This document shows positions 1,556-20,664 of a stretch of 22,572 nucleotides of DNA, one piece after another. Each line of letters starts with the position of its first letter. Position 1 is the stretch's first letter. This DNA is from a virus. The notes beneath the pieces were generated by a model, which saw nothing but the letters and a program-made list of their open reading frames with translations, was not told the origin of the DNA and made no database searches. Position numbers and translations under genes: made by a program. The stretch lies in the IMG/VR virus record IMGVR_UViG_3300006735_000291, positions 1 through 22,572 of that record; one strand, given 5' to 3'.

Positions 1556-2290
1556 TTAATACCTCTTAGCTTCGGGTGGTGTTTCCATCACACTTCTAAC
1601 CTCTGTGATGTTTTTTAATTGTTCTTCATGCATCATTTCATTGTATTCAGAAAGTTTAACTTGGTGGTAAGTTTTGTTATCATCAAGAATTATAATATCA
1701 GGATCTTCAAGTCTATGGTATCCATAAACTCTTTTTTCTATAGGACAATCTGTGTCTAATAAACCTGATCTAGCTGCGACATTTACAGTCATTCCTCTTT
1801 CTATACATTTAGCTAACCAAAACTCACAACATGCTTTTCCTGCCTCAGCAAAGTGTAGATTACCTCTATAGCTAAAATCTATACCAAACAAGTTGATACT
1901 GCCAACTTTGTTGTATAAAGCAAAAGCAAAAGCAAAAGGCACAGTGTTATTTAAGTACGCACAATCTGCGTCTTGTACAACTTCTTGTAAAGGGTAGAGT
2001 ACTGCAGAAGGGCATCTTTCATCTAGTTCGCATGTGTATACAGGTATGTCAGCTACAGGTAGCCATCTTCTCATGATATCTGTTTGACTTCCTGCATCGT
2101 CGGTGTCCATAAACCTACTAACTGGATCAAGCATAAATACTCTGTCGCATTTAGTGATAGCTCCCATACAATTTATCCCCCAGACTTCGTCATAGGTTTT
2201 TGAATGTATTAAACTAAGGTGAAAGTCTAGCTGACTCGCGCCCATAGCAACAATGGCAATATTCTTGCCTTCGAGTTTTTCTATCCTCAT
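1556..2290 (-). CDS. Rossmann-like MptE/sialyltransferase-type protein
   Basis: This is a 244-residue protein. The N-terminus reads KNIAIVAMGASQLDF (residues 9-23), a beta strand followed by a Gly-rich turn. VWGINCMGAITKCDRVFMLD follows at residues 36-55, and SINLFGIDFSYRGN at 131-144. The pattern strand-GxG/S turn, 'W-I-N', 'D-R-V-F-M-x-D' and 'hhLFGhDF-x-Y' resembles the fold shared by MptE-like (DUF115) proteins and GT42 sialyltransferases. That assignment rests on pattern memory, not a search. A glycan- or nucleotide-linked enzyme would be unusual amid neck and tail genes and could modify the virion or the host surface. The start overlaps the upstream stop as ATGA. The C-terminal 50 residues are charged. 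Confidence 0.55.
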   Translation of the reverse strand: MRIEKLEGKNIAIVAMGASQLDFHLSLIHSKTYDEVWGINCMGAITKCDRVFMLDPVSRFMDTDDAGSQTDIMRRWLPVADIPVYTCELDERCPSAVLYPLQEVVQDADCAYLNNTVPFAFAFALYNKVGSINLFGIDFSYRGNLHFAEAGKACCEFWLAKCIERGMTVNVAARSGLLDTDCPIEKRVYGYHRLEDPDIIILDDNKTYHQVKLSEYNEMMHEEQLKNITEVRSVMETPPEAKRY

Positions 2291-2937
2291 GCCTGTGGTT
2301 GTCTCCGTATCTCGTCATACCTGTACTGATCTCTAGTCGATTTAGCTTCACCAAGATTTTTTAATCCTAGTAAAGCATCCTGAAACTTAGATTCATATAC
2401 TGGTATTGCTTCATAATTTTTGAGATACGTGCATGCTTCAACTAAACTGCCATAAAGTATTGCGTTAGGAGCATTTTCAGAGAGCCATGTTGTTTCACTT
2501 CCTGTAGTGGAAGTGAGTGATGCTGGTCTGTAGTAGTAGTGCAGTTCAACCTCGTAGGCTAAATCTGAAGTGGGTGCGACTATAAATGTATTATCGTCAA
2601 ACTCTGCATAATATTTAGGTAGTCCTGTTGTGGATGCATTGGGAGTATAATCCCTAATGAAAGAAACTTGTTTTAATAAAAGGTAGTTGTAATTACTTGC
2701 ACTGTCAATAACAGCAAGGCTAAATGGTGCTAAATAATCAGTAGGGCATTCTAAATAAGTCCCAGAAGCTGTAAGATTACCTACTTGATTTTTCCTAAAA
2801 TTGTCTAATTGAACATTTTTAAATATTCGTTCTTCTGCGGTTGTTATGAAAGTAGTTAGGTTGGATACAGAACTGGTCTCTGTACTGTCTAGATAGTCTT
2901 GTATTGCTGTTTTTAATGTTGTGTTTGTAAAACTCAT
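2287..2937 (-). CDS. Head-tail adaptor (SU10-type adaptor/neck protein)
   Basis: This is a 216-residue protein. Its helical N-terminus reads TLKTAIQDYLDST, then AEERIFKNVQLDNFRKN; a beta-rich centre follows and then a helical C-terminus ('ILYGSLVEACTYLKNYE', 'YRYDEIRRQ'). The order helical start, beta sandwich with an 'LPKYYAEFDDNTFIVAPTSD' core, then helices is what I associate with phage adaptor proteins that ring the portal and connect it to the tail. The start codon overlaps the stop of the cupredoxin-bearing gene (ATGA), and the stop overlaps the start of the next gene, indicating coupled translation. With the gp4-like protein at 3674-4354 it gives two candidate ring proteins for the neck. 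Confidence 0.7.
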   Translation of the reverse strand: MSFTNTTLKTAIQDYLDSTETSSVSNLTTFITTAEERIFKNVQLDNFRKNQVGNLTASGTYLECPTDYLAPFSLAVIDSASNYNYLLLKQVSFIRDYTPNASTTGLPKYYAEFDDNTFIVAPTSDLAYEVELHYYYRPASLTSTTGSETTWLSENAPNAILYGSLVEACTYLKNYEAIPVYESKFQDALLGLKNLGEAKSTRDQYRYDEIRRQPQA

Positions 2938-3674
2938 GTCGTATAAATTATACCTCCCATCCCACTATGATTAGTGCAATAATAATATAAAGTTGGGGCA
3001 CCAGATGCAACTTCTATTTGAGTATAAGCTCCTGAACTTCCAGGTGTTCCACTTGTTGTGACACCAGTTGTATATTCAGATCCACCTCCATGTGTACCAT
3101 TTGACGTAGTTGATAACCTCAAAGGATGCCCACTATTAGTACTGTCTGATTGATCAAATTTATAAGTTTGTCCTTCTGTTACTGTTAGTGCTGCTGCTCT
3201 TGAACCGTCGATATAAAAATAGTTTGACCCTAGATAGTTAGCTACTGTAACGGTGTAAGTTGTTGTTGATGGACTTGGGCTCGGACTTGGGCTCGGACTA
3301 GGACTAGGACTAGCTGCCACACCTGATATAGTTATTTCACCTACACTTCCATTTGATGGAGGAACAAGATACATAGAACCTATCGTATCATTATTCACAG
3401 CATACATAATCGGAGCACTAATACCTGCCGAATTCACAGGGTTACTTATTCTAACTTGACCTAAATTTATTGTTGACTTAACATCTGGTCTAGGGTTGTA
3501 AAGTGCTTCTGGGTCTACAGTTTTTCTAGTTGTAATAAGTTGTGGGTGTTTGGGGTCATACATATCTGGTCCAACTAATAAACCATTCCATGTTTTTTTC
3601 ATGTCGTTTAACTTATATCTAAAACCACTTATGTCACAGATACCATAAGCGTTTTTACCACTAGAGTATGCCAT
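2934..3674 (-). CDS. Neck/virion protein with C-terminal cupredoxin-like domain on a Ser-Pro linker
   Basis: This is a 246-residue two-domain protein. Residues 1-120 are a phage structural domain (GFRYKLNDMKKTWNGLLVGP, then DPKHPQ), a type I recall from marine phage neck regions. Residues 122-136 are an unbroken alternating Ser-Pro linker. Residues 138-246 look like a cupredoxin beta-sandwich: TYTVTVANYLG, then GQTYKFDQSD, SGHPLRLS and YYYCTNHSGMGG. H183, C233, H236 and M239 match the order of type 1 copper ligands (His...Cys-x2-His-x2-Met). Copper binding is inferred from this spacing; the domain could instead be a cupredoxin-fold adhesion module. The start overlaps the upstream stop as TAATG. 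Confidence 0.72.
   Translation of the reverse strand: MAYSSGKNAYGICDISGFRYKLNDMKKTWNGLLVGPDMYDPKHPQLITTRKTVDPEALYNPRPDVKSTINLGQVRISNPVNSAGISAPIMYAVNNDTIGSMYLVPPSNGSVGEITISGVAASPSPSPSPSPSPSPSTTTYTVTVANYLGSNYFYIDGSRAAALTVTEGQTYKFDQSDSTNSGHPLRLSTTSNGTHGGGSEYTTGVTTSGTPGSSGAYTQIEVASGAPTLYYYCTNHSGMGGIIYTT
3271..3313 (-). repeat. In-frame 12/6-bp tandem repeat encoding the Ser-Pro linker
   Basis: On the plus strand there are two copies of GGACTTGGGCTC (3271-3282, 3283-3294) followed by three copies of GGACTA (3295-3312). On the coding strand these give alternating Ser and Pro codons. Every unit is a multiple of 3, so copy-number change by slippage would lengthen or shorten the linker without a frameshift. 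Confidence 0.9.
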
Positions 3675-8371: not shown

Positions 8372-8806
8372 TTAATAATCGACTGCTTCTGGGTCAGGTA
8401 TTCTGGCTAGAATCTCATCGTCATTTAATAGACGAAGTTCTCCTCCGTCTATTTTAAATCTAGCTCCAGCATATCTGCCGAAAAGCACCCATTCGCCTTT
8501 CTCACACCAAGCACCTTCAGGAAACTTTACAGGATCCTTATAGGCATCTGGTCCGAGAGAGATAACATATCCTACAACTGAGGATACTGTGTCTTGTTCT
8601 ATAGTGTTTTTAACTAATTGTATTCCACCATCTGTTACTGCTGATCTACCTCTAGGCAGTATAAGTACTCTATACCCTGTAGGTTGTGGTAGAACATCAA
8701 CTTGTGAAGCTACTTCTTCTACAGTTTTTGCTTTTGGTACTTCTTGTTCTAATTTTTTATCAAAGTTTAGAACTTGGTCTGGTATGCTACTTTTCTTAGT
8801 CGTCAA
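8372..8806 (-). CDS. Phage GroES-like (Cpn10) co-chaperonin
   Basis: This is a 144-residue protein. Residues 1-40 are a charged extension. The Cpn10 core starts at about 42: PTGYRVLILPRG, then a mobile-loop-like segment with GGIQL (residues 60-64, against GGIVL in E. coli GroES), then VVGYVISLGPDAYKD, GEWVLFGRYAGARFKIDG and ELRLLNDDEILARI. The segment order matches GroES. Such proteins cap the host GroEL ring to help fold the capsid protein, as T4 gp31 does. The start is TTG with GGAG seven bases upstream, overlapping the previous stop by 11 bases. It sits directly before the scaffold gene, in line with a capsid-folding role. Confidence 0.85.
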   Translation of the reverse strand: MTTKKSSIPDQVLNFDKKLEQEVPKAKTVEEVASQVDVLPQPTGYRVLILPRGRSAVTDGGIQLVKNTIEQDTVSSVVGYVISLGPDAYKDPVKFPEGAWCEKGEWVLFGRYAGARFKIDGGELRLLNDDEILARIPDPEAVDY

Positions 8807-14211: not shown

Positions 14212-14268
14212 AGTTCCTCCGTCATGCACTGCTCTATATAAGGTCAATGGAGAGCGTGTTTTCCATAT

Positions 14269-14296
14269 TCTATACCTAAACTCTTGCTATCGTAAA
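14269..14296 (-). promoter_or_regulatory. Possible promoter for the terminase/head operon
   Basis: On the minus strand, TTTACG, a 16-base spacer and TATAGA (or TAGAAT with an 18-base spacer) lie 58 bases before the chosen terS start. It resembles the repeated TTTACT...TAGAAT promoters further up but lacks their CCTTTACTT context. It would be a sensible entry point for the head genes. It is assigned by sequence only. Confidence 0.45.
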
Positions 14297-14480: not shown

Positions 14481-14507
14481 TATGAAAATGGCTCCGAGTG
14501 GAGCCAT
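14481..14507 (-). terminator. Terminator with the shared ATGGCTCC stem, copy 1
   Basis: The perfect 8-bp stem is ATGGCTCC (14488-14495), loop GAGT, then GGAGCCAT (14500-14507). It is followed on the minus strand by TTTTCAT. It ends the 91-residue gene. The stem is the same as at 15193 and 15809, and the T run is the weakest of the three. Confidence 0.75.
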
Positions 14508-14533
14508 CTATTGAGGAAGATACTTATTACTAT

Positions 14534-14809
14534 TTATAGAACTACATGAAACTTTTGTGGGCAGTCTAGATACTCTTCAAGCTCAATCCTTGTGAGATCA
14601 GCAATCCAATGCTTTAGATTTCTACACGAGCAATAATCCCAAAAGCCATCAACAAAATTATCGGCTCTGAAACCCTCGAGGCAAAACTCTTGGTCGTCGT
14701 CGTGCCAATAGATTGTTATATTGCTGTCAGTAAAACAAACCACTTCGTCTGCATTTTTCTTTTTGACTATTAGTTCGCTGACTGCGTTAATTAAATCTCT
14801 CTTTTTCAT
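14534..14809 (-). CDS. Hypothetical small acidic protein, cassette gene
   Basis: This is a 91-residue protein, not recognised. It has a Lys-rich start (MKKRDLINAVSELIVKKKNA), then VVCFTDSNITIYWHDDDQEF and an aromatic-rich GFWDYCSCRNLKHWIADLT. Cysteines occur at five positions, including CSC, but in no clear zinc pattern. It has the shared AAGAAAGGAGATAAAT leader. There is no separate promoter of the repeated type, so it is probably read from the promoter at 15132 through the weak hairpin at 14851. A terminator follows its stop. Confidence 0.65.
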   Translation of the reverse strand: MKKRDLINAVSELIVKKKNADEVVCFTDSNITIYWHDDDQEFCLEGFRADNFVDGFWDYCSCRNLKHWIADLTRIELEEYLDCPQKFHVVL

Positions 14810-14850
14810 ATTTATCTCCTTTCTTAAATATTGATTAGTTATACCACGAA

Positions 14851-14871
14851 AGCCGAGTATAAGACTCGGCT
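14851..14871 (-). terminator. Short hairpin after the 70-residue gene
   Basis: AGCCGAGT (14851-14858) pairs perfectly with ACTCGGCT (14864-14871) across a 5-base loop. On the minus strand it is followed by TTTCGTGG, a poor T run. It lies 17 bases past the stop of the gene at 14888. It probably attenuates rather than fully stops transcription, letting some reach the 91-residue gene. Confidence 0.5.
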
Positions 14872-14887
14872 AGTGGGGTGGGGAAAT

Positions 14888-15100
14888 TTAGACGACCATA
14901 AACCCTCTGTTAACTACATCTAAGATAGTGCGATTGGCTCTCATTATCCAATCTAGTTGGAAAAGTGGAGTCACTCTATCGGTGCCAGGAACACCAACTA
15001 TAATAGGGTGGCATCCTTCTAGACCAAACTTAGCAACAGCTTTATTAAGGTTCTCTATAGAAGCGTAGCTTCTTAGGTTTTCGTCGATTACTTTGTACAT
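14888..15100 (-). CDS. Hypothetical small protein, cassette gene
   Basis: This is a 70-residue protein, not recognised: MYKVIDENLRSYASIENLNK, then KFGLEGCHPIIVGVPGTDRV and QLDWIMRANRTILDVVNRG. It is soluble, with mixed alpha/beta character. It has its own promoter (15132-15159) and a strong AAGAAAGGAG site 9 bases from the ATG. A hairpin follows the stop. Such single-gene early cassettes often encode host-takeover proteins, but nothing in this sequence shows that directly. Confidence 0.65.
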   Translation of the reverse strand: MYKVIDENLRSYASIENLNKAVAKFGLEGCHPIIVGVPGTDRVTPLFQLDWIMRANRTILDVVNRGFMVV

Positions 15101-15131
15101 ATTTATCTCCTTTCTTATTTATGTACAATTC

Positions 15132-15159
15132 ATTCTAGGTCATTCTGCATAAAAGTAAA
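15132..15159 (-). promoter_or_regulatory. Repeated phage promoter, copy A
   Basis: TTTACT (-35, plus 15154-15159), a 16-base spacer and TAGAAT (-10, plus 15132-15137), in the CCTTTACTT context. It lies 32 bases before the 70-residue gene start, with the AAGAAAGGAG leader between. It is one of five such copies. Confidence 0.82.
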
Positions 15160-15192
15160 GGAGTTTAGTAAAAATAAATGACTTTTTTCTCG

Positions 15193-15223
15193 AGCAAAAA
15201 AATGGCTCCCAGAGGAGCCATTT
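15193..15223 (-). terminator. Terminator with the shared ATGGCTCC stem, copy 2
   Basis: The perfect 10-bp stem is AAATGGCTCC (15200-15209), loop CAGA, then GGAGCCATTT (15214-15223). A run of T follows on the minus strand. It lies 16 bases past the stop of the 138-residue gene. Confidence 0.92.
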
Positions 15224-15238
15224 ATTAGTGGGTAAACT

Positions 15239-15655
15239 TTAGCCTACATAGACCAAAGTAAAACCGTACTCGCTAGTGCTGTATCTAATATTGATACCAG
15301 TGCCGTGCTCACTAGTGTTTTTTGCCTCGCCTTTTTCTGCGAAACCTTGCTGTTTTAAAGCAGAAAAGTCATCGGCAGATTTACAAGTTTCTAGGAAGTT
15401 TTTCCAAGGAAGAGGTACTGAACCAGCAGCACTAGACATATAATAAGTGTCGCCGTAAGTATCGTCCTCAAAAGCACCACTTTCACCAACTTCTGTTCTT
15501 TGTTGGTGCCAGACAGCAGTACGCACATTTAGAATCACTTTACCGTATTTGGCAGGATTATTTTTTAAACCTTGTACTAATTTTCTAGCCTGAGTGCCAG
15601 ATAGGTAGTAGTCAAAGTTCTCTTCTTTGTAGTTTTCGTCGTTAAATTTAGTCAT
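15239..15655 (-). CDS. Hypothetical protein, cassette gene
   Basis: This is a 138-residue soluble protein, not recognised. It starts MTKFNDENYKEENFDYYLSG, then TQARKLVQGLKNNPAKYGKV, a likely helix. A Tyr/Asp/Gly-rich middle follows (FEDDTYGDTYYMSSA), and the C-terminus is a beta-type GFTLVYVG. The gene is a complete unit: its own promoter (15689-15716), the AAGAAAGGAG leader and its own terminator (15193-15223). There is no membrane segment or signal peptide. The acidic composition is typical of small early phage proteins (inference only). Confidence 0.65.
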   Translation of the reverse strand: MTKFNDENYKEENFDYYLSGTQARKLVQGLKNNPAKYGKVILNVRTAVWHQQRTEVGESGAFEDDTYGDTYYMSSAAGSVPLPWKNFLETCKSADDFSALKQQGFAEKGEAKNTSEHGTGINIRYSTSEYGFTLVYVG

Positions 15656-15688
15656 TATTTTCTCCTTTCTTAATTAACTATGAGAATC

Positions 15689-15716
15689 ATTCTACGCGAT
15701 TCTACAACAAAGTAAA
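15689..15716 (-). promoter_or_regulatory. Repeated phage promoter, copy B
   Basis: TTTACT (plus 15711-15716), a 16-base spacer and TAGAAT (plus 15689-15694), in the CCTTTACTT context. It drives the 138-residue gene, whose leader holds AAGAAAGGAG. The upstream flank is identical to that of copy C over 44 bases. Confidence 0.85.
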
Positions 15717-15742
15717 GGAGTTTTATTAAAAAAGATGAATTA
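15699..15742 (-). repeat. 44-bp direct repeat carrying promoter upstream flank (copy 1 of 2)
   Basis: Bases 15699-15742 are identical to 16199-16242. The repeat includes the -35 region and upstream flank of promoters B and C. It ends exactly at a TAA read on the minus strand: at 16240-16242 this TAA is the stop of the cytidylyltransferase-like gene, and at 15740-15742 it closes the short open frame described next. This points to block duplication of a promoter module. Confidence 0.9.
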
Positions 15743-15859
15743 TTTTTTAAGCACTTTCGATAAGTCCACTCTCCAGTTAGACTCGTCGAGAAACTGTGTG
15801 TGCCACAGGCAAAAAAATGGCTCCCGAAGGAGCCATTTATTGTAAACAAATTTAGTCAC
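15740..15859 (-). other. Short open frame upstream of promoter B, possible gene remnant
   Basis: A 39-codon open frame runs from a GTG at 15859, overlapping the upstream stop, across the terminator stem, to TAA at 15740. The part after the terminator reads WHTQFLDESNWRVDLSKVLK, which looks like a real protein C-terminus. The terminator inside the frame and the lack of a ribosome-binding site make expression unlikely. I infer a gene tail left behind when cassettes were swapped. It could also be chance. Confidence 0.35.
15809..15838 (-). terminator. Terminator with the shared ATGGCTCC stem, copy 3
   Basis: The perfect 10-bp stem is AAATGGCTCC (15815-15824), loop CGAA, then GGAGCCATTT (15829-15838). 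It is followed on the minus strand by TTTTTTTGCC. It lies 14 bases past the stop of the gene ending at 15852. The stem is identical to copy 2; only the loop differs. Confidence 0.92.
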
Positions 15860-16154
15860 ATTTTTGTGAGGCAGCAAGGACAGAGAAGAATATTACTTCT
15901 CTGTCTTTTTGCGTTTGTTTATTAAGTTGATACAACAAGCTATTAAGGTCTGGTGTAAACAAAAGAAACTCCCTATCACTTTCGCCAACCCAACCAGCTT
16001 TAATAAGTCGGTTGACTTTGTAATGCTCTTGCTTTAGTTTAAGTGCTTTTTTGGCAAGGACTTTTTGATAAAGATCCTTGAAATAAGGTTTTTGTACAGT
16101 AGCCTCAAAGCCTTCTCTATACTCTCTTATTTTTTCTCTAGTTAATTCATTCAT
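15852..16154 (-). CDS. Hypothetical basic helical protein, cassette gene
   Basis: This is a 100-residue protein, MNELTREKIREYREGFEATV, then VLAKKALKLKQEHYKVNRLI and a C-terminus ending SVLAASQKCD. It is basic and largely helical, and not recognised. The longer frame could start at 16190, but that codon lies on the promoter -10 box. The ATG at 16154 follows AAGAAAGGAGATAACT at the right distance, so 16154 is the start. It has its own promoter (copy C) and terminator (copy 3), a complete one-gene unit. Confidence 0.72.
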   Translation of the reverse strand: MNELTREKIREYREGFEATVQKPYFKDLYQKVLAKKALKLKQEHYKVNRLIKAGWVGESDREFLLFTPDLNSLLYQLNKQTQKDREVIFFSVLAASQKCD

Positions 16155-16188
16155 AGTTATCTCCTTTCTTTTTATTAACATAAGACTC

Positions 16189-16216
16189 ATTCTAGGTCAT
16201 TCTACAACAAAGTAAA
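16189..16216 (-). promoter_or_regulatory. Repeated phage promoter, copy C
   Basis: TTTACT (plus 16211-16216), a 16-base spacer and TAGAAT (plus 16189-16194), in the CCTTTACTT context. It lies 24 bases past the stop of the cytidylyltransferase-like gene and drives the 100-residue gene. Confidence 0.85.
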
Positions 16217-17552: not shown

Positions 17553-17707
17553 TACGCCACCTTCTCAACACAAGAAAACCTATAAGCTAATTCTTCACAT
17601 CTTTTTATAATGGCTTTCTTTTCTGATTTAGACAGTTCCTGTCCAGCAGTCCTAACAAGTTCACGATGCATAAACTCATTGAAATAATATTTAGTTAGTG
17701 TGTCCAT
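17552..17707 (-). CDS. Small helical protein (51 aa)
   Basis: This is a 51-residue protein: MDTLTKYYFNEFMHRELVRT, then AGQELSKSEKKAIIKRCEEL and AYRFSCVEKVA. It is helical and charged, with two cysteines. It starts at the TAATG overlap with the 127-residue gene and ends at the start of the 78-residue gene, with no spare bases on either side, which strongly supports a real gene. Its function is unknown. Confidence 0.65.
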   Translation of the reverse strand: MDTLTKYYFNEFMHRELVRTAGQELSKSEKKAIIKRCEELAYRFSCVEKVA

Positions 17708-18090
17708 TACGCCACCCCTTTGGATGACGCAATGTTTATGTAACCCCAGCGTTTGTAATAGTTAAGATCGCCTTCGCAAATGCCAAGTTCTTTCTTAAGT
17801 ATAGCAACCGTGCGACCAGAAGAGCCAATGCCCTCGATAACTTGGTTGATATTTACAGACCGAGGAGTTCTCGCACCAATGACATAGTCAGCAGATTGGC
17901 TAACTATATCTGTTGGTGAGATGCCATAAGTTTTGGCAGTCTTTACTCGGCTCTTTGGGGTTTTACGGTTAACATGCTCTTTAAGTAATTGTAGAGCACT
18001 TTCCGCAGTAGTATCACCTTTGACTTTCTTGGTTAGTGTTTTAAACACAGTAGACAAGTTTTTGTCGTAGGGGTTAAGGGTATCGTTCAT
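17707..18090 (-). CDS. Hypothetical basic protein, first gene of the small-gene operon
   Basis: This is a 127-residue Lys/Ser/Thr-rich protein. The N-terminal half is helical (LSTVFKTLTKKVKGDTTAES, then ALQLLKEHV). The C-terminal half (INQVIEGIGSSGRTVAILKK, then ELGICEGDLNYYKRWGYI) is probably mixed and could include a winged-helix-like DNA-binding segment, but this is a guess. It has the repeated promoter (18124-18151) and the AAGAAAGGAG leader, and its stop overlaps the next start. It leads the operon and may act early. Confidence 0.65.
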   Translation of the reverse strand: MNDTLNPYDKNLSTVFKTLTKKVKGDTTAESALQLLKEHVNRKTPKSRVKTAKTYGISPTDIVSQSADYVIGARTPRSVNINQVIEGIGSSGRTVAILKKELGICEGDLNYYKRWGYINIASSKGVA

Positions 18091-18123
18091 ATTTTTCTCC
18101 TTTCTTATTAAACAATACCAATC

Positions 18124-18151
18124 ATTCTATATCATTGTGCAAGAAAGTAAA
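18124..18151 (-). promoter_or_regulatory. Repeated phage promoter, copy D
   Basis: TTTACT (plus 18146-18151), a 16-base spacer and TAGAAT (plus 18124-18129), in the CCTTTACTT context. It drives the eight-gene operon ending at 16240. It faces the plus-strand oxygenase gene, whose own promoter must share the 97-base gap. A TATAGT at 18171-18176 is a possible -10 for that gene, without a good -35. Confidence 0.82.
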
Positions 18152-18187: not shown

Positions 18188-18874
18188 ATGGTTGACATTA
18201 ATAGGTTGTTTAACTATTCCCCAAAAAATATTGCTCCTGAGCTCTTAGAAGCCACCGACGGTTATGTCCTTGTTCCCGAAGATTCGTTTATGCCAACAGA
18301 AGAAATCTCTAAAAAAGTTTTAGATTTCGTCGACGAGCCAGCACCAGATATTTTTAGTTTTCCTTTTCTTACTCCTGAATATTGCGCAGAGTTGATACAG
18401 CTGTGCGAAGATATTGGTCAATTTAAACATCGTCCTGGTGACGCGTATCCTGCACCAGAAATGGATCTAAAAGATATTTCTCCTTATGTCAACACATCCC
18501 ACATACAATTTATAGAAAAACATATTGTACCCATCACCACGAGTCTGTGGCATTTTCCTGTTGTTTGGTTGTCTTCTGCATTCGTTGTGAAACACAGCAT
18601 GACAGGACAAACAGGCAACCCTGGATGGCATCATGATGGGTTAGCTGATGTTACACTTTCTGTGCAACTTAACGATGATTTTGATGAAGGTGGTGTGTTT
18701 TTTGAAAGACAAAAGTTTGCTGCTGGTCGACTACCTGTCGGACACGCAATATTGTTTCCTTCTAAAGTGTCACACAGACACACAGCGTTGAACATCACAA
18801 GAGGCACGAGGTATTCGTTAACATATTGGATGAGTGGAGATATTCCAGAAAATTTATCAGCTAGATCAACATAG
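18188..18874 (+). CDS. 2-oxoglutarate/Fe(II)-dependent oxygenase
   Basis: This is a 228-residue protein and the only plus-strand gene in the window. The iron site is H148-x-D150 (GWHHDGLADVTLSVQL), and the third ligand is H198 in SHRHTALNITRG. R208 in GTRYSLTYW is the usual 2-oxoglutarate-binding arginine, ten residues after the His, as in prolyl 4-hydroxylase-type enzymes. GGVFFERQ and GHAILFPSKV match the strands between the motifs. It would hydroxylate a protein, nucleic acid or small molecule; the substrate is unknown. There is no ribosome-binding site before the ATG. Opposite orientation suggests an independently acquired auxiliary gene. A large hairpin follows the stop. Confidence 0.88.
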   Translation: MVDINRLFNYSPKNIAPELLEATDGYVLVPEDSFMPTEEISKKVLDFVDEPAPDIFSFPFLTPEYCAELIQLCEDIGQFKHRPGDAYPAPEMDLKDISPYVNTSHIQFIEKHIVPITTSLWHFPVVWLSSAFVVKHSMTGQTGNPGWHHDGLADVTLSVQLNDDFDEGGVFFERQKFAAGRLPVGHAILFPSKVSHRHTALNITRGTRYSLTYWMSGDIPENLSARST

Positions 18875-19643: not shown

Positions 19644-19859
19644 TTAGCCACGAGGTTTATTCGTAGCTGTAGTCTCTACTACATTCATATATGAAGTACG
19701 ACCATAATTACTAACAAAGCCAATATGCATATCGTTAGTATCTTTTAAAAGCCAACCACCCATACGCTCACTAGAATGTTCCTCGCTAGGTTGTCTAGTA
19801 AATCCTTGAGGTTTAGTTTCCTCGAAAACTTTTAAAACTCTTGTAAAACTATCTGACAT
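19644..19859 (-). CDS. Hypothetical protein (71 aa)
   Basis: This is a 71-residue protein, not recognised: MSDSFTRVLKVFEETKPQGF, then HSSERMGGWLLKDTNDMHIG and FVSNYGRTSYMNVVETT. It is mixed alpha/beta and soluble. It has its own repeated promoter (19886-19914) and the AAGAAAGGAG leader. It could be the first gene of a unit running through the lipoprotein to 18976. Confidence 0.65.
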   Translation of the reverse strand: MSDSFTRVLKVFEETKPQGFTRQPSEEHSSERMGGWLLKDTNDMHIGFVSNYGRTSYMNVVETTATNKPRG

Positions 19860-19878
19860 AAAATTCTCCTTTCTTTAT

Positions 19879-20014: not shown

Positions 20015-20440
20015 CTATCCTCCTACTAAATATTTATTTAATCTATCCCAGTCATAGGGTTTAGTTAATTTTAATTCTGGCTTTAGTCTTAGACCTTCGT
20101 CTACAATTTCTCTAGCCTTATCCCCTCTATACAAAAATATTTCTGCGTCAGGAGTGCGAACTAAAACAAAACAACGACCACCAGTCTTAGAGCGTTTAAT
20201 CAACCAGCCTACTTGCTCAGGACGAAGTCCTATCTTTTTACCAGCGTTGACTACTTTTAACTCTACCCAAAACTCAACACCATCACAACAAGCGTTGAAG
20301 TCGGGGATACCTCTACCTGTACCCCCAGTCTCAATGCGTTGGATATGCATTCCTGTTAAATTTTTACTAACAGTGCTCCAAAAAGCACTTTCTTTCAAAA
20401 GTTTCTTTTTATAGTTTTTACACCTTTGTCTTTTAGCCAA
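20015..20440 (-). CDS. PD-(D/E)XK nuclease, VRR-NUC/resolvase-like
   Basis: This is a protein of up to 141 residues. The core GRGIPDFNACCDGVEFWVEL, then KVVNAGKKIGLRPEQVGWL gives D47, E60-x-K62 and Q76, the order of a PD-(D/E)XK active site as in VRR-NUC and Holliday-resolvase-like nucleases. CFVLVRT and IFLYRGD follow as further core strands. It would cut branched or replication DNA, which suits its place beside the polymerase. The open frame begins at a TTG overlapping the helix-turn-helix gene by 46 bases; the next internal ATG (residue 31) would leave the core intact, so the start is uncertain. Confidence 0.75.
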   Translation of the reverse strand: MAKRQRCKNYKKKLLKESAFWSTVSKNLTGMHIQRIETGGTGRGIPDFNACCDGVEFWVELKVVNAGKKIGLRPEQVGWLIKRSKTGGRCFVLVRTPDAEIFLYRGDKAREIVDEGLRLKPELKLTKPYDWDRLNKYLVGG

Positions 20441-20664
20441 TCCGTGTAATCACTGTGATCGATCATATCCTTTTCAATTTTATGAGCGACATAATAGTCA
20501 CCATCACCAAGTTTACATCGTCTAATAATTTGATGTACTCTTTGTTTTGTCAGACCGTACTCGTCCCCAATCTGTTCCATCGTCTTACCTTTCTTGTACG
20601 CATCCCACATATTTCTATTCCTGTCCAAAAAACTTTGGGCAGACCTTTCATCTATTCCTTGCAT
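20395..20664 (-). CDS. Small helix-turn-helix DNA-binding protein (sigma region 4-like)
   Basis: This is an 89-residue protein. AYKKGKTMEQIGDEYGLTKQ (residues 22-41) followed by RVHQIIRRC is a helix-turn-helix like that of sigma factor region 4.2 ('T-x-E-Q-I-x-x-x-x-G-L-T-x-x-R-V-x-Q-I'). A charged N-terminus and a basic tail complete it. There is no sigma region 2, so it is a regulator rather than a sigma factor. The start overlaps the polymerase stop as TAATG. It might act on the repeated promoters; that is inference. Confidence 0.75.
   Translation of the reverse strand: MQGIDERSAQSFLDRNRNMWDAYKKGKTMEQIGDEYGLTKQRVHQIIRRCKLGDGDYYVAHKIEKDMIDHSDYTDWLKDKGVKTIKRNF

Follow-up and report, generated by a model that had tools for sequence, protein, structure and literature searches.

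Small phage genes that share repeated expression signals have been described before, and the closest described system is found in T4-type phages. The PeSLs of these phages (Arbiol 2010, Comeau 2014) combine a promoter and a stem-loop between small variable genes, and they are reported to mediate gene shuffling (PMC4503421). In the haloarchaeal virus HGTV-1, a conserved promoter-like box and an inverted repeat precede most open reading frames of one genome arm, and an aid to shuffling was proposed there by analogy with PeSLs (PMC3950731). Cluster K mycobacteriophages possess the SAS, one short sequence that includes the ribosome-binding site and stands before many unrelated small genes; some SAS have an extended upstream element, the ESAS, which is a 17-bp imperfect inverted repeat (PMC3203893). 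The morons of lambdoid phages, finally, are open reading frames with their own promoter and terminator that are absent from close relatives (PMC1524935).

Here we describe an array of small genes in a 22,572-base virus fragment from IMG/VR, the whole of which is referred to as the window. Among these precedents the T4 PeSL is the nearest, and the array stands beside it as a separate case, carried by HTVC023P-type marine podoviruses; as the genome is not T4-type, the array is not a PeSL by membership. Judged by sequence, it shares with them an early sigma-70-like promoter beside a stem-loop, the order here being terminator hairpin, promoter, leader. It further resembles them in that genes are shuffled among relatives and that breaks fall at the elements. 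It differs from them in its HTVC023P-type podovirus context, in its sequences, in units that are mostly single genes, in a long shared leader that forms part of the unit, and in the existence of a second, promoter-less hairpin spacer. This suggests that short-tailed phages have evolved the PeSL strategy anew. HGTV-1 differs in that it is a virus of archaea and its signal is of the TATA-box type, and the swaps reported here are shown by comparing relatives. As with the SAS, the array leader is common to unrelated small genes, but it reads AAGAAAGGAG where the SAS/ESAS consensus is GGGATAGGAGCCC. What lies upstream of it is a directly repeated sigma-70-like promoter, so that the array does not belong to that class. 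Like morons, the genes g100 and g138 possess both a promoter and a terminator, while g70 has a promoter and g91 a terminator; the deviant base composition of morons is not found, the G+C content being 34.7-40.4% versus 39.2% for the window. Unlike morons, the array units share their parts and are traded between phages.

Layout of the array and its repeated parts

The named phages nearest to the window in TerL, portal and PolA are HTVC027P, 023Pt_psg01, HTVC023P and DSL-LC04, and by these sequences the window appears closest to HTVC023P-type marine podoviruses and allied phages. Members of this lineage have a PolA at least 45% similar to that of cultured members, and the GroES co-chaperonin is among their core genes (PMC9599517). 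The window PolA shows 48.6-51.8% identity, and a Cpn10 domain at 8372-8806 marks a GroES-like gene, the other core genes lying outside the fragment. None of the four named phages contains the array repeats, and therefore not all of the HTVC023P-type lineage has the system; in a word search of the main paper on this lineage, neither promoters nor terminators nor cassettes were found to be mentioned. A search for the host by TerL in genome contigs gave no close match, and Rfam and tRNA scans of the sequence were empty.

The array lies on the minus strand between the DNA polymerase and the small terminase (TerS), and this order of replication genes, array and small terminase is fixed. Listed in the direction of the genes, its parts are:

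19857..19875, minus strand: sixth, weaker leader, before the 71-aa gene
19644..19859, minus strand: 71-aa gene, behind the sixth leader
18124..18151, minus strand: fourth promoter, exact TTTACT-N16-TAGAAT, before the 127-aa gene
18088..18106, minus strand: leader of the 127-aa gene
17707..18090, minus strand: 127-aa gene, behind the fourth promoter and its leader
16189..16216, minus strand: promoter of g100, exact TTTACT-N16-TAGAAT
16152..16170, minus strand: leader of g100, AAGAAAGGAG..ATG
15852..16154, minus strand: g100, 100-aa ORFan in the first slot
15815..15838, minus strand: terminator after g100, with a C(UUCG)G loop
15689..15716, minus strand: promoter of g138, exact TTTACT-N16-TAGAAT
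15653..15671, minus strand: leader of g138
15239..15655, minus strand: g138, 138-aa ORFan and most widespread array gene (16 members)
15200..15223, minus strand: terminator after g138
15132..15159, minus strand: promoter of g70, exact TTTACT-N16-TAGAAT
15098..15116, minus strand: leader of g70
14888..15100, minus strand: g70, 70-aa ORFan
14839..14884, minus strand: second spacer type between g70 and g91, a hairpin with outer CCAC/GTGG pairing and invariant TTTCGTGGTATAA, no promoter
14807..14825, minus strand: leader of g91
14534..14809, minus strand: g91, 91-aa ORFan in the last slot
14488..14507, minus strand: terminator after g91, fixed next to TerS

A preliminary description of this DNA had reported a TTTACT-N16-TAGAAT promoter on three of the four genes g100, g138, g70 and g91, one leader common to all four, and three hairpin terminators with a common stem. 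All of these are present as it reported them, and the array proved to be longer than it had recognized, with the extra promoter and leader at 18088-18151 and the weaker sixth leader farther out. The leader AAGAAAGGAG..ATG occurs six times against 0.16 expected, four of the copies preceding the four array genes, and just upstream of the sixth copy there is a promoter-like TCCTTTACTTC, which yet lies within a short open reading frame. The terminator pattern ATGGCTCC-N4-GGAGCCAT occurs three times (starts at 14488, 15202 and 15817) against 0.04 expected, far beyond chance, and all three terminators fold well below shuffled sequences (z -3.1 to -4.7). Their stems are clade-specific among the relatives, with ATGGCTCC in most groups and ATGGCACC or ATGGGATC in another. 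The g100 frame itself holds a further strong hairpin in its 3' end, at 15876-15908, which is terminator-like on the plus strand.

The two-hexamer promoter pattern, when two mismatches are allowed, is not rare by itself (9 found versus 5.3 expected). Its four exact copies, however, are embedded in repeats of 70 nt that are 63-91% identical. When upstream sequences were picked by gene and not by motif, TCCTTTACTTT was found to precede most array genes in all groups. A wider tally was seeded with this core, so that its constancy there is by construction; 16-18 nt past the core it is followed by TAGAAT, CATCAT or similar (TATAAT in distant relatives). The array promoters are sigma-70-like in form, with a strongly conserved -35 block; they and the terminators are putative signals, recognized by sequence.

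Identity between copies in the same genome reaches 91% over 70 nt, which could also mean that the promoter-leader or hairpin repeats are small mobile elements spreading within the genome. Such spreading would fit the finding that in L098, a 61-kb relative, at 2230-3102, the same promoter and leader precede a solitary gene for a SprT-like metalloprotease, which lies amid structural genes and on the opposite strand. The copies are, however, in the correct order and strand for expression; the promoter sites lead into a leader and a start codon in 16/16 cases in the window's group (36/37 in the next group), and neither target duplication nor transposase was seen. We regard mobility of the repeats as very improbable. 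In favour of an array of transcription units, 6/7 and 5/6 core copies in two contigs of 61-62 kb lie inside the array and all of these point along the genes, the outlier of L098 being the SprT-like gene site, and the reversed core pattern gave no match in either contig.

The slot of g91 is built differently, as it lacks a promoter and the hairpin spacer at 14839-14884 takes its place. In some slots this spacer replaces terminator and promoter, which is found in the window's group only. The invariant TTTCGTGGTATAA follows three unrelated hairpin stems and is seen in the window and in L003, L007, L029, L031, L033 and L036; the spacer was considered as a candidate attenuator, processing site or extended -10. 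The latter was weighed for the GTGGTATAA element, but in L003 the leader follows it so closely that a transcript starting at GTGGTATAA would lack the leader. As no promoter accompanies the hairpin in front of g91, transcription of this gene must come from farther upstream, and g70 and g91 probably share a transcript. Together with the common direction of all genes, the promoter-less hairpin would suit a plain operon of fixed order, in which internal promoters and attenuators set dosage and the likeness of the parts reflects shared regulation only. Against this stands the variation of gene content and order in almost every relative, which makes such an operon the least probable of the accounts considered; as a full account it is refuted by the gene swaps described below.

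Exchange of genes between related phages

Relatives were fetched from IMG/VR via TerL, and their upstream genes were clustered and mapped; most of them are fragments. PolA, an oxygenase-like gene, TerS, TerL and often a cytidylyltransferase-like gene form constant flanks, while almost every relative has a different set of small genes between them. Across 25 loci, the genes directly behind an exact leader or a promoter belong to 33 families. The oxygenase-like gene, of the 2OG-Fe(II) type (18188-18874), is the only sizeable plus-strand gene of the region, and its position is conserved in the relatives with readable sequence there. The preliminary description had proposed to compare the locus across relatives and had held that the same four genes in fixed order would speak against its reading. 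Gene-by-gene differences were found between phages with 98-99% identical terminase, and no relative with a readable array has these four genes.

Four kinds of change could be shown: single genes are gained or lost, swapped for other genes, replaced by another allele or found in another slot, and the switches lie within the shared parts or at them. The closest pair is the window and L003 (TerL 98.9% nucleotide identity), in which homology ends at the g91 leader and restarts exactly at the terminator; in place of g91, L003 has a 284-aa gene that fits exactly between leader and terminator. L003 and L007 both lack the g100 unit. In each, the left side of the single promoter agrees with the window's copy at g100 and the right side with that at g138, so that the gain or loss of g100 is a switch inside the shared promoter block. 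The g70 of L007 is L036-like (98.1% nucleotide identity, with TerL at 89%) between window-like flanks; the replaced allele begins and ends with a switch, at the promoter/leader on one side and the hairpin on the other. In L029, a more distant phage whose TerL and TerS are 89% and 82% like those of the window, g100 occupies another slot, next to TerS, with 97.6% identity and homology from leader to terminator. Likewise, the family c13 is 94% identical in phages with a TerL identity of 78.6%, where it stands behind different promoter spacers. These near-identical wild genomes let one follow, base by base, how single accessory genes can pass between members of a marine phage lineage with their expression intact.

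From these observations we think it likely that the array consists of small, mostly one-gene transcription units, the gene bodies of which are exchanged between related phages via the shared parts. Each unit would begin with a sigma-70-like promoter, or in some slots with the hairpin spacer, followed by the common AAGAAAGGAG leader, and most units would close with a terminator of the common stem. Recombination between related phages would then exchange the gene bodies, with the near-identical promoter, leader and hairpin copies supplying the homology that flanks an unrelated gene. With homology on both sides, the resident promoter could take over the incoming gene, and the expression signals would be kept.

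The repeats may guide recombination instead of merely surviving it. The latter would be expected from ordinary phage mosaicism, in which recombination occurs anywhere, selection keeps the joins at gene edges, and the common promoter, leader and hairpin persist since no gene can do without signals for its expression. Breaks at gene boundaries that lack an element are indeed common (32/68), and between the window and L003 a gene beside the cytidylyltransferase-like gene came or went with no element involved. Breaks are more frequent at boundaries that have a promoter or terminator (57/78; Fisher p 0.002), a comparison that is confounded by length, as the element-bearing intervals are three times longer. 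Similarly, among the 82 distinct block ends 55% fall no farther than 20 nt from an element, versus 18% of random positions, although these ends are not independent and the alignments run through the repeats, which pulls ends towards them. Mosaicism is also spoken against by the fact that near-identical genomes switch inside the shared promoter block and at leader and hairpin, and we consider it a rather unlikely explanation. As breaks also occur at element-free boundaries, the elements are favoured but not sole points of exchange. The earlier idea of interchangeable units into which genes can be slotted is thus strongly supported by the four kinds of change and by the breaks at elements, and is to be qualified by the element-free breaks and by the predicted nature of the promoter and terminator activity.

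Array proteins and a candidate regulator

The array proteins are under purifying selection, as dN/dS is 0.05-0.33 for most families (0.46-0.64 for c10). For the four genes of the window, the values against relatives are 0.05-0.30 (g100 0.28 vs L031, g138 0.21-0.30, g70 0.15-0.20, g91 0.05 vs L007), and they look real on this basis. Pfam gave no family above cut-off for them, PADLOC gave no model, and no match to PHROGs was better than E 0.03; tblastn found nothing in 50,697 phage records, and the sole result of these searches for any array gene was DUF6011/phrog_4046 for the 284-aa gene of the relatives. The one usable protein model, that of g138 (pLDDT 76), had no fold match, and the model of g70 was poor (pLDDT 60). 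The suggestion of host-takeover or defence roles in the preliminary description thus found no support in families or in the g138 fold. Many array proteins are small and acidic, traits that say nothing about function; they may act on the host early in infection. The marker TCCTTTACTTT ... AAGAAAGGAG retrieves dozens of such unknown small phage genes, which form a ready screening list for effects on the host or its defences.

A possible regulator of the promoters is encoded beside PolA:

20395..20664, minus strand: g89, 89-aa sigma-70 region-4-like protein, candidate promoter regulator

This stand-alone gene lies directly downstream of PolA and is conserved in one clade of relatives; its sigma-70 region-4 domain scores above the Pfam cut-off, and the helix-turn-helix is among its most conserved parts. 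Phages with g89 mostly have CTTTACTT..leader sites (18/22 carriers versus 0/16 non-carriers), but the strong carriers of these sites all belong to one PolA clade, so that the association counts as one evolutionary event and is only suggestive of a regulatory role. In the subclade of L158, L162 and L163, g89 is present and such sites are few or none, and in some relatives the core varies to TCGCTTTACTTT or GTGCTTTACTTT. It is conceivable, though we hold it to be doubtful, that the clade has a self-contained plug-in expression platform in which g89 reads the -35 block TCCTTTACTTT and the same parts serve regulation and gene exchange; any gene recombined under the block would then be switched on with the whole array.

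More distant g89-bearing relatives (L177, L156, L159 and L160) have repeated promoters with the TCGCTTTACTTT or GTGCTTTACTTT core and TTAGAAAGGAG leaders; the core GTGCTTTACTTT resembles the T4 MotA box, with a different spacing to the -10. Before TerS, at 14267-14296, the window has a promoter-like TTTACG-N18-TAGAAT, and the sequence CTTTAC(G/C)ATAGCA found there is conserved in most relatives and may be a late promoter.
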